Origin: Exiguobacterium aurantiacum
GTDB lineage: Bacteria > Bacillota > Bacilli > Exiguobacteriales > Exiguobacteriaceae
DNA: 64,000 bases
Assembly (NCBI RefSeq): GCF_024362205.1
Contig: NZ_CP101462.1
Location: forward strand, 2,762,001-2,826,000
Direction: 5' to 3'
Shown here: one piece after another, positions 21,089 to 60,212 of the stretch
How the letters are laid out: each line of letters begins with the position of its first letter
Position numbering within the stretch: the first letter of the stretch is position 1
The notes under the pieces: model-generated
The model's input: only the letters and a program-made list of their open reading frames with translations
The model's database searches: none
Told to the model about the DNA's origin: nothing
Program-made: the position numbers and the translations under genes

Positions 21089-21126
21089 AACACTCCCTCA
21101 TTATTTTTATGCACATAAGGAGTGTT
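21089..21126 (-). promoter_or_regulatory. Hairpin covering the ribosome site of the PfpI-type gene
   Basis: Reverse strand: AACACTCC, 22-nt loop, GGAGTGTT, then TTCAAT and the ATG. The 3' arm contains the ribosome site. It could also act as a weak terminator for the upstream glycosylase gene. The arrangement parallels 5356-5407. Confidence 0.45.
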
Positions 21127-52752: not shown

Positions 52753-54120
52753 TCAGGCGGGCTGGGCGTTCTTCCATGCCCAGCCCGCCATCTTCTTAAG
52801 ATTGAGGGCAGCAAAAGTAAGCATCGCCTGCATTGAAACTTTTTCAAGTCCCCGATAACGGGTCCAACGCATGCCATGCTTCTCTTTTGCGTCCGCGAAC
52901 ACGCGCTCGACCGTCTGTTTACGACGGTCATAGATGTTGCGGTTCAATTCCGTGTGGCGGAGGTCTTCGACCTCGTCCATATAGGGTTGCCAGAGGTGCC
53001 GCTCGATGATCCGCTGGTGCTTCTGGCTCTTCGTGCACTGCTCGAGCAGCGGGCAGTTCACACAAACCGCAGGATTCGAGACGTACTTGCGTTTCCCCTC
53101 GCGCATCGTCGTGCTGTACGTTAATAACTCGTTGTTTGGGCAGATGTAGACGTCATGGTGCTCGTCGTAGATGAAATCCTTGGTCTTGAAGGCGCCCTTC
53201 TTACCCTTCGGGCGGGTGTATGGGAAGACCGGCAGGATCCCACGGTCAATCAGCAGCTTGGCAATGGCCGGATTTTTATAGGCGGAGTCGGCGGCGACGG
53301 CGAACGGTTGAATCAGGCGGTCGGAGACCTTGTCGAGCAGATCGGGGAACGCTACACTATCGTGCACGTTACCCGGTGTGACGATAGCACCGAGCACGAA
53401 CCCATGGGCGTCGCTCGCCGCATGGACCGAGTAAGCGAACTGCTTCTCACGCTCACCCTTCACGTAATATCCACTCTCAGGGTCTGTCGTGCTGACCTTG
53501 ATTTCCTTCGTCTCCTCCGCCTGATTCTTTTTTGGCCCTAAGGGCTTCTTTCCACTTTCTTCGCGGTCTCGCTCGACCTCGGCATCGAGTTGTTCTTGAT
53601 AGTGCTTCACCTCTTGCCGGACGGTCTTCTTGACGAGCTTCCGCTTGTTTGCGTTCGCTTTGACGTGTGTCGAGTCGACGAATAGGACGGCACGATCGAT
53701 GAACCCTGCGTCAGCAGCCTGTTCAAGGATATGATAGAAGATGTCGTCGAACAAGCTCGTGTACTGGAACCGACGCACATAGTTCTTCCCGAACGTCGAG
53801 AAATGTGGCACCTTGTCCGTGAACCCGAACCCGAGAAACCAACGGTATGCGACGTTCGTCTCGATCTCACGAATCGTCTGTCGCATGGATCGGATACCGA
53901 ACAGGTACTGAAGGAAGGCCATCTTGATCAGGACGACAGGGTCGACGCTTGGCCGGCCACGGTCCTCAGAATATAAGTCCTCCACGAGCGGATAGATGAA
54001 CTCAAAGTCGATCACCGCCTCGATTTTTCGGACCAGATGGTCCGCTGGCACAAGCTCGTCGAGCGTGACCATTTCCAGTTGTGTCCGATTGGTTTCCGAT
54101 TCTGTTGATTTCCTGATCAT
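52753..54120 (-). CDS. IS1182-family DDE transposase, copy 2
   Basis: An intact 455-residue transposase, one residue different from copy 1 (Asp in SVAFPD). The start at 54120 has GGAGG 8 nt upstream, as in copy 1; the earlier in-frame ATG at 54156 overlaps the TATAAT. Acidic catalytic candidates and the Cys cluster are all present, so both copies appear capable of transposition. Confidence 0.92.
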   Translation of the reverse strand: MIRKSTESETNRTQLEMVTLDELVPADHLVRKIEAVIDFEFIYPLVEDLYSEDRGRPSVDPVVLIKMAFLQYLFGIRSMRQTIREIETNVAYRWFLGFGFTDKVPHFSTFGKNYVRRFQYTSLFDDIFYHILEQAADAGFIDRAVLFVDSTHVKANANKRKLVKKTVRQEVKHYQEQLDAEVERDREESGKKPLGPKKNQAEETKEIKVSTTDPESGYYVKGEREKQFAYSVHAASDAHGFVLGAIVTPGNVHDSVAFPDLLDKVSDRLIQPFAVAADSAYKNPAIAKLLIDRGILPVFPYTRPKGKKGAFKTKDFIYDEHHDVYICPNNELLTYSTTMREGKRKYVSNPAVCVNCPLLEQCTKSQKHQRIIERHLWQPYMDEVEDLRHTELNRNIYDRRKQTVERVFADAKEKHGMRWTRYRGLEKVSMQAMLTFAALNLKKMAGWAWKNAQPA

Positions 54121-54227
54121 CCGATTCGCCTCCATAACTGTTTCTATATCTCCCATTATAAAAAAGCGACGACGTTACGAAAAGAGGGATTGATGCGTGG
54201 GCCGACTGCGGGCACGCGAGACTTCCA

Positions 54228-56749: not shown

Positions 56750-56900
56750 CGTCGGCCGCTCGAACTGTCGCTATATTTTCAAGCCTTGTCGTGATATACT
56801 GCACATATGTTGCTTATTTGAGTGCGTGTCACTCATTGACACAACATCACCGAACAGTTCATCAATGTTCGGTCCAACAACTGCAGAAAGAAGGTTACGC

Positions 56901-57893
56901 ATGGAACGTAAACTATTTTTAATTGACGGAAACTCCATGCTGGCCAGTGCCTACTATGGTGCCGCCGCGAGCCGAACGAAAAAAGGACGCGAGGTATCTA
57001 AAAACGATCGGAGTGCCGTCATCGGTATGACCGGCCTCATCCGGACGATTCTACGCAGACATCGTCCGACTCATTTTGTCGTCGTGTGGGACGTCTCACG
57101 TGAAACATTATGGCGCCGCGAGCTTTACCCAGGCTATAAACGCCGTCGCCGCCAGACACCACCCGAGTTGAAAGCGCAAATGGAACTCATGCGCCAATTG
57201 CTTGAAGATAGCGGAATCCCGCAATATCAAGTCGAAGGCTATGAAGGAGAAGATTTGATCGCTCATATCGCTCGGAAGTTCAGCTGCAGCGCTCCTGTCG
57301 TCATCATGACGAAGGATAAAGACTTGCTTCAGCTCGTGAGCCCACGTATCACTGTCTGGCTTCAGACGCAGGAGCTGCAACAAATGCAGGCTCGTTGCGA
57401 CATCAAAGACAATCGCCCGCTCCCGCTCAAGCGACATCTCGAGATTCGTCCTGAGGAGATTGCGGCATTGTACGAAGGATTGAAGCCAAAACAGCTCTCA
57501 GCAGTCAAAGCATTGACAGGAGACCGTTCAGACGGGATTCCACCTGTGGCCGGATTAGATGAAAGTCAATCGGTCCAGCTGATCAAACGCTTCGGTTCGC
57601 TCGATAAGCTTTATACGGCGCTAAGCGTCAAAGGCGACAAACGACAACTGATCAATGAAACGATCGCGGCACTGACGTCAGAAGAAGTGCCCCGTAACTT
57701 GAGACGCACACGTAAAAAGGCCGAGCGCAACATGGAGCTCGTCCGTCTCGATGTGACGGTGCCAGAACTTGAACATTTGAAACTGGCTCATCTTGAGCTC
57801 AGTATTAATTCAAAACGTGTCGAACAAGCGTATCAAAAACGCGGCATTCGCCTCTCGTTTGATTCAAGTCAAAAGAAAATTTCAGCACGCTAA
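56901..57893 (+). CDS. 5'-3' exonuclease (YpcP-like, PolI N-terminal domain type)
   Basis: A 330-residue flap-type nuclease homologous to the 5' nuclease domain of DNA polymerase I. Metal residues lie in LFLIDGNSM, VVVWDVSRETLWRRELYPGYKRRR, EGYEGEDLIAH and MTKDKDLLQLV, followed by the helix-hairpin-helix part GDRSDGIPPVAGL. It probably helps remove RNA primers. The start at 56901 has AGAAGG 6 nt upstream; 25 further codons are open before it. Confidence 0.88.
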   Translation: MERKLFLIDGNSMLASAYYGAAASRTKKGREVSKNDRSAVIGMTGLIRTILRRHRPTHFVVVWDVSRETLWRRELYPGYKRRRRQTPPELKAQMELMRQLLEDSGIPQYQVEGYEGEDLIAHIARKFSCSAPVVIMTKDKDLLQLVSPRITVWLQTQELQQMQARCDIKDNRPLPLKRHLEIRPEEIAALYEGLKPKQLSAVKALTGDRSDGIPPVAGLDESQSVQLIKRFGSLDKLYTALSVKGDKRQLINETIAALTSEEVPRNLRRTRKKAERNMELVRLDVTVPELEHLKLAHLELSINSKRVEQAYQKRGIRLSFDSSQKKISAR

Positions 57894-58708: not shown

Positions 58709-58814
58709 CCTTGATCACCTCTTTCTCAGTATACCCGCTAAGTAGAATCGACAGAAGACGGCACAAAAAGGTGGTATAGTTACCTCAAGGATACTGTAGA
58801 GAGGAGTGAGACTG

Positions 58815-59141
58815 ATGCCATTGATTTCAAGTTGCGAAGTCGATACCGCGCTCGAGTTGATCACGGGGAAATGGAAACCGTCGATTTTACTCGCGCTTAT
58901 CAATGAAGACACGTTACGGTTCAGCGAATTGAAACGCTCGCTCCCAAATATCAGTCAAAAGATTTTGACGGCACAGCTTCGCGATTTAGAGGAGCAAGAC
59001 ATCATCATCCGCACCGTCTATCCCGAGGTTCCGCCTCGTGTGGACTATCGCTTGAGCGAGTATGGGAAGACGTTGATTCCGGTGCTCGAGACGATGAACG
59101 CTTGGGGCATCCAACACGCAGAACGGATGCGTCAAAAATAA
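58815..59141 (+). CDS. HxlR/DUF24-family regulator with N-terminal cysteine
   Basis: A 108-residue winged-helix regulator. It starts MPLISSCEVDTALELITGKW; Cys7 corresponds to the redox-sensing cysteine of YodB and CatR, and it is the only Cys. Conserved parts include RFSELKRSLPNISQKILTAQL and VPPRVDYRLSEYG. ATG at 58815 has GAGGAG 8 nt upstream. Divergent from the catE-like gene, it probably represses it until quinones or diamide modify Cys7. Confidence 0.88.
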   Translation: MPLISSCEVDTALELITGKWKPSILLALINEDTLRFSELKRSLPNISQKILTAQLRDLEEQDIIIRTVYPEVPPRVDYRLSEYGKTLIPVLETMNAWGIQHAERMRQK

Positions 59142-59221
59142 TTGTCCACATGTGGATAACCCGTTTCCGCATTCCCATCTATCACTTATCCACAGGAGGC
59201 TCACATGATTCGTTATCCACA
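59142..59221. promoter_or_regulatory. Cluster of four DnaA boxes
   Basis: Three perfect TTATCCACA boxes: 59151-59159 (minus strand), 59186-59194 (plus) and 59213-59221 (plus, inside the first codons of the next gene), with TTGTCCACA (one mismatch, plus) at 59142-59150 abutting the first. The second plus-strand box directly precedes the ribosome site of the S66 peptidase gene. Confidence 0.75.
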
Positions 59222-60212
59222 ATTGACCGGACATCACTTCGGTGTGACGGCCCCTTCGTCTGGCGTTCCCGCTGAATTACATGGACTGCTCCATGAGGCC
59301 GAGGCGACGTTCAGCCGCCACGGGTTTACGCTCCAATTCGAGCCATCGGTTTGGACGCAAGACAGAGCAAAATCGGCACCCGCAAAAGTCAGGGCCGATG
59401 AATTGACGCGGTTGTTCCACGACGACGCCATCGATTTGATTATCCCGCCATGGGGCGGCGTCCTCTTGATTGAGTTGCTAGACGCTATCGAGTGGGACAC
59501 GCTCCCACCGAAATGGGTGCTCGGCTATTCGGACGTCAGCTTATTCCTATTCGTGTATACGCTCAAGACCGGCATCGCCTCGGCTCACGGGACGAACCTC
59601 GTCGACCTGCGCGGCGAAGAATGGGACGCGACGAGCTCGCGTTGGCTCGATGTCGTATCAGCAAAAGAAGGCGAGACGGTCATCCAGCTCGCCTCGGAAC
59701 AGTTCCAAAAAGAGTGGCAGCATGAGAACCCAAGCCCGCACGTCTATCATTTGACCGAACCGACGGAGTGGAAATCACTCGGCGGGACAGAGGCGACCGG
59801 ACGACTGCTTGGCGGCTGTATCGATGTCTTGTTGCATACGATCGGCACACCGTATGGAGATGTCGCTACGTTCCAACAGACCCATTTGGACGGGGAGCCG
59901 ATTCTTTGGTATTTCGAGAACGCCGAGCTCGATGTTACGGCACTCAAACGGACCCTGCTTCAAATGAAGTGGGCCGGTTGGTTTGATCATACGTCTGGCA
60001 TTCTGTTCGGGCGCAGTGCGGCCCAACAGCCCGTCCAAGGCTACACGGCAGAAGACGTGTATGCGGAACTGCAAGAATTGCTCGACGTACCTGTCATTTA
60101 CGATATCGACTGCGGGCACGTCCCGCCGCAAATGACACTCGTCAACGGTGCCCACGCCTCGATTCAAGTCGAGGACGGCAAAGGGACACTCATTCAAACG
60201 TTCAAGGGCTGA
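59205..60212 (+). CDS. S66-family peptidase (LD-carboxypeptidase/MccF-like)
   Basis: A 335-residue serine peptidase. Nucleophile Ser109 in LGYSDVS, Glu in WYFENAELD and His in DCGHVPPQM form the S66 triad. The family cleaves the tetrapeptide L,D-bond in murein recycling, or peptide-nucleotide antibiotics (MccF). Which one applies is open. GGAGG precedes the ATG, and DnaA boxes cover the start region. The last codons AAG GGC TGA form part of a palindrome shared with the convergent gene. Confidence 0.87.
   Translation: MIRYPQLTGHHFGVTAPSSGVPAELHGLLHEAEATFSRHGFTLQFEPSVWTQDRAKSAPAKVRADELTRLFHDDAIDLIIPPWGGVLLIELLDAIEWDTLPPKWVLGYSDVSLFLFVYTLKTGIASAHGTNLVDLRGEEWDATSSRWLDVVSAKEGETVIQLASEQFQKEWQHENPSPHVYHLTEPTEWKSLGGTEATGRLLGGCIDVLLHTIGTPYGDVATFQQTHLDGEPILWYFENAELDVTALKRTLLQMKWAGWFDHTSGILFGRSAAQQPVQGYTAEDVYAELQELLDVPVIYDIDCGHVPPQMTLVNGAHASIQVEDGKGTLIQTFKG

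Follow-up and report, generated by a model that had tools for sequence, protein, structure and literature searches.

What do four DnaA boxes, packed into 80 bp at the start of an S66 peptidase gene, do at a chromosomal site other than oriC? They lie in a 64-kb window, by which we mean the whole stretch of DNA analysed (C1:2762001-2826000, on a chromosome contig of 3,043,125 bp). Our data point to an oriC-proximal chromosomal DnaA-box cluster (DBC) that would serve as a DnaA sink restraining early initiation, a reading to which we give a probability of roughly 0.72. The features concerned, in window coordinates, are the following.

58806..59141, plus strand: HxlR-family regulator gene (PF01638), upstream of the cluster
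59142..59150, plus strand: DnaA box 1, TTGTCCACA, one mismatch; left half of a head-to-head pair
59151..59159, minus strand: DnaA box 2, perfect; abuts box 1 head-to-head
59160..59185, no strand: 26-bp spacer between boxes 2 and 3, constant in length and variable in sequence
59186..59194, plus strand: DnaA box 3, perfect; the GGAGG ribosome-binding site of S66 follows directly
59205..60212, plus strand: S66 peptidase (LD-carboxypeptidase family) gene (PF02016, PF17676)
59213..59221, plus strand: box 4, a perfect match inside S66 codons 3-6 (R-Y-P-Q)

Position and strand of each box confirmed the architecture given in the preliminary description of this DNA, that is, three perfect boxes and one single-mismatch box at 59142-59221, the first two abutting in opposite directions and the last within the first codons of S66. 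The perfect word is TTATCCACA in boxes 2, 3 and 4. Box 1 begins right after the hxlR stop codon, and box 4 runs from the last base of codon 3 to the second base of codon 6 of the S66 open reading frame. We refer to boxes 1-3, a head-to-head abutting pair followed after 26 bp by a third box (-> 0 <- 26 ->), as the module. The identification of the downstream gene as S66 was borne out by matches to both Pfam families, and its protein is 99% identical to the S66 of E. chiriqhucha RW-2, which places the host among Exiguobacterium close to that species; against the NCBIfam muramoyltetrapeptide carboxypeptidase family it scored 54 bits, under the cut-off of 378. Elsewhere in the window, inspection by eye revealed a transposase-like open reading frame of 467 aa on the minus strand (52753-54156), some 5 kb from the cluster, and a stand-alone 5'-3' exonuclease-domain protein without a polymerase part (PF02739, PF01367) is encoded at 56826-57893.

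Such a density of boxes had been judged very unlikely at random, and the counts agree. Outside the cluster, the 64-kb window holds a single further box at no more than one mismatch, at position 21107, whereas about eight are expected from shuffles of the window, so base composition does not account for the cluster. Genome-wide, 32 perfect boxes stand against five occurrences of a control word (the box read backwards), most of the 32 being concentrated in oriC and a few clusters. A perfect-box triplet within 80 bp would be expected about 1e-5 times per genome (32 x (8e-4)^2 / 2), an estimate derived from these genome-wide counts and not from a full-genome simulation. Like DBCs, the window cluster therefore packs several boxes close to the consensus into a small interval, at a density well above that expected by chance.

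The cluster was also described as probably distinct from oriC, and we agree. Neither dnaA nor dnaN was found near the site in the window. The dnaA gene occupies C1:1-1419, with boxes on either side; together, the gene and its flanking boxes (C1 1-1617 and 3042654-3043125) place oriC at the ends of the contig, about 222 kb from the cluster, which thus lies on the left arm. We consequently rejected the cluster as a candidate oriC. The distance between module and oriC is 167-223 kb in seven genomes of the window genus and 93-108 kb in four of the sister genus, and the module is on the left of oriC in every genome measured, these being the genomes with oriC boxes listed. Like DBCs, which are chromosomal, outside oriC and mostly oriC-proximal, the cluster is found at a limited distance from the origin, about 222 kb here and 93-223 kb in the others measured.

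The preliminary description had made its reading depend on the conservation of the boxes in close relatives, and the module is present in all 38 Exiguobacterium genomes, which are all those of the order in the survey; an order-wide search added none beyond the family. In 37 of them there is one copy each with the exact 26-bp spacer (reversed control, 0), and the 38th (G024) differs by one mismatch in box 2. Every one of the 19 window-genus genomes carries S66, with the module upstream of it at identical spacing. Box 1 reads TTGTCCACA in 18 of these 19 genomes and CTATCCACA in the other, while in the sister genus it is a perfect TTATCCACA; box 2 is perfect in 18/19 window-genus genomes and box 3 in 38/38 genomes of the family. 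Pairwise differences within the window genus amount to 0.8% in boxes 1-3, against a mean of 43% and a maximum of 69% in the spacer (31% in the spacer of the sister genus). Nevertheless, the length of this variable spacer did not change once across the genomes compared. As a rough control, the gap between the glyoxalase and hxlR genes ranges from 95 to 101 bp in the same species. In E. qingdaonense, both of these genes are missing and the cluster has been retained.

The conservation of box 4 is weaker and inconsistent, since in several species it reads TTATCCCCA or CTATCCACA through single changes. It may largely be explained by the S66 protein sequence, as a coding effect, and box 4 is likely of lesser importance.

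The species of one genus are related and their conservation is partly non-independent, so that there are fewer independent events than genomes. The strongest single argument is that the module occurs in two genera with different neighbours. In the sister genus, S66 is located elsewhere and the module lies about 70 bp upstream of a gene for an RlmI-like 23S rRNA methyltransferase, a label for which every NCBIfam match was under the cut-off. A search for the RlmI-like gene gave no match in the 19 window-genus genomes, although the same query matched in G024, from the sister genus. Beyond the three boxes, the flanks of the module in the two genera show no clear similarity. Such a box cluster was absent from all 67 non-Exiguobacterium S66 loci that we examined, and a plasmid search for relatives of the locus yielded nothing beyond short matches within HTH genes of Rhizobium. 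The idea of a DnaA-regulated promoter linking cell-wall recycling to replication has fared less well under this comparison, because S66 is the neighbour in the window genus only and the RlmI-like gene takes its place in the sister genus; a specific link of that kind is not supported.

Since the neighbour genes differ between the two halves of the family, the module probably holds DnaA and times replication instead of controlling one gene. The geometry was kept while the genes changed, which favours a role for the bound complex as such. Under the sink reading, DnaA on the head-to-head pair and on box 3 would form one complex, the geometry of which would be under selection. At about 170-220 kb from oriC, the module would be duplicated early in each replication cycle. 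The doubled sites may then take up DnaA and help prevent early re-initiation, by analogy with what is seen for the six clusters of B. subtilis. The earlier suggestion of a DnaA-titrating cluster, as at Bacillus loci, is supported by the conservation in 38/38 genomes, the excess of boxes and the fixed spacing. We infer DnaA binding, titration and timing at the module; in the literature searched, DnaA-binding (ChIP or IDAP) or replication data for Exiguobacterium were not found. Reports on B. subtilis (PMC5295017; PMC13220808) describe early initiation in a strain lacking the six clusters outside oriC, and its partial relief when one cluster is restored. The presence of YabA in the host indicates that its control of initiation resembles that of B. 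subtilis. Most of the regions that DnaA binds strongly in B. subtilis have more boxes than the three or four of the cluster (4-12 sites; PMC4447404), so its titration capacity is modest. Against a sink stands the fact that pure titration by itself needs no fixed geometry.

The alternative that survives best, although we consider it unlikely, is that the module is mainly a DnaA-responsive switch of the adjacent gene (S66, or the RlmI-like gene in the sister genus), in which DnaA bound to the leader would block or gate transcription in step with replication. Box 3 adjoins the S66 ribosome-binding site. In the sister genus, the spacer between boxes 2 and 3 holds a conserved TATGNTATAnT, which by inspection resembles an extended -10 promoter element, so that DnaA would cover the promoter. 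Furthermore, sda is activated by DnaA in B. subtilis, where ywlC, vpr, trmE-noc and other genes seem to be repressed by it (PMC4447404). Nevertheless, the candidate regulated gene is not the same in the two genera, and S66 and RlmI-like are unrelated. No promoter-like element is visible by eye in the spacer of the window genus, where S66 looks co-transcribed with hxlR. In one genome (G005), moreover, the boxes were kept although the S66 frame is broken: at G005:C1:251154-252163 residues 1-275 and 269-335 fall in different frames and the upstream boxes are intact, a split that could be a frameshift or a sequencing error.

A sink and some local effect may coexist, since bound DnaA may also affect transcription nearby. 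The boxes flank the putative RlmI-like promoter in the sister genus, where the promoter-like element of the spacer makes local regulation likely too. In the window genus they sit between hxlR and S66, and as S66 is apparently read from upstream, either a roadblock or no effect is possible.

Rather improbable, in our view, is a DnaA nucleoprotein switch in which the geometry, and not the gene context, has been selected. It would take the form of a head-to-head pair with a third DnaA at a set distance, changing the state of DnaA, for example by nucleotide exchange or hydrolysis, and not merely storing it. If this were true, the switch would play the part of DARS or datA in Firmicutes, with a geometry of its own.

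We see still less reason to regard the module as a DARS-like site that promotes ADP release and so reactivates DnaA. It does have three boxes in fixed geometry including a head-to-head pair, and a pair of this kind is described as typical of E. coli DARS and indispensable to it (PMC10380432). The cores of DARS1 and DARS2 in E. coli MG1655, in our scan of the bioD-uvrB and mutH regions and with an assignment of boxes to cores that is our own, read -> 5 bp <- 3 bp <-, against -> 0 <- 26 -> for the module, with the third box reversed. Membership in DARS was rejected, as the E. coli arrangement of boxes I-III was not found in the module. IHF and Fis are not known from Bacilli. DARS2 depends on both proteins (PMC10380432). 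In addition, the exchange of ADP bound to DnaA is rapid in B. subtilis and S. aureus (PMC6727663), leaving less need for a DARS-like site.

That the repeats belong to another protein, or fold in the RNA into a hairpin of boxes 2 and 3 ahead of the ribosome-binding site, is equally hard to credit: boxes 1 and 2 make up an 18-bp near-perfect palindrome and boxes 2 and 3 are complementary in RNA, but the same 9-mer is concentrated around dnaA in this genome, a transcript started at the sister-genus spacer promoter would exclude box 2, and a leader RNA hairpin was rejected on folding no better than that of shuffles (z -0.45).

Returning to clusters of DnaA boxes, the head-to-head pair is found more widely than the module. 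Its perfect form, TTATCCACATGTGGATAA, was detected in 43 of 398 Bacilli genomes (control, 0). Among 20 non-Exiguobacterium loci that we read, several are immediately upstream of mnmE/trmE and others fall within dnaA regions, and at none of these 20 did we find a third box at the Exiguobacterium distance. In vitro, trmE/jag ranks among the regions of B. subtilis that DnaA binds most strongly (PMC4447404). The pair is thus recurrent in likely DnaA-binding regions.

Additional clusters were observed within Exiguobacterium. In the host, a second one with perfect and near-perfect boxes lies upstream of rlmH (G000:C1:3016250-3016590). It matches the DnaA-binding region of yydA in B. subtilis, a gene that we take to be rlmH, and is apparently common to Bacillus and Exiguobacterium. 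A third host cluster (G000:C1:2989276-2989460), at the 3' end of a histidine-phosphatase-like gene, has four perfect boxes with spacings of 69, 46 and 11; the same spacings occur in G004, G005 and G006, and the group was not among the boxes listed for G001, G002, G003 and G012. In the sister genus, a cluster between genes for a DEAD-box helicase and a DUF3817 protein (G030:C1:2948195-2948315) has the geometry -> 9 bp <- 24 bp ->, related to that of the module and yet different. The window, too, has a DUF3817 gene, which is 3.6 kb away from its cluster. With a further cluster near a conserved helicase-Nudix gene pair, both genera have extra clusters in related neighbourhoods.

DnaA-box clusters outside oriC have already received much study in B. 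subtilis and E. coli. What the module adds is a spacing kept to the base over two genera while the neighbours changed, a natural experiment that sets timing against gene regulation and favours timing. It also offers a small, clearly delimited element with which initiator titration can be tested in a Firmicute that does not sporulate.

Compared with known systems, the module resembles E. coli DARS1 and DARS2 in its three-box core with a head-to-head pair, but the gap within the pair is 0 instead of 5 bp and the third box is 26 bp off and in the opposite direction. With E. coli datA it shares being a non-coding cluster of DnaA boxes away from oriC; datA restrains initiation (PMC5295017), working with IHF and promoting ATP hydrolysis on DnaA (PMC5295017; PMC10380432). 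The DBCs of B. subtilis outside oriC are ywcI/vpr, ywlC, yydA, trmE/jag, gcp/ydiF and sda/yqeG. Unlike these, the module and box 4 comprise only 3-4 boxes, S66 is not a DBC gene in B. subtilis, the geometry is fixed over two genera despite the change of neighbours, and binding is something we infer. Nevertheless, the features in common are several: near-consensus boxes gathered in a short stretch, in or next to gene starts, and for the most part no more than a few hundred kb from oriC. Several of the B. subtilis DBCs adjoin DnaA-regulated genes, and one of them, the rlmH (yydA) cluster, is present both in B. subtilis and in the Exiguobacterium host.
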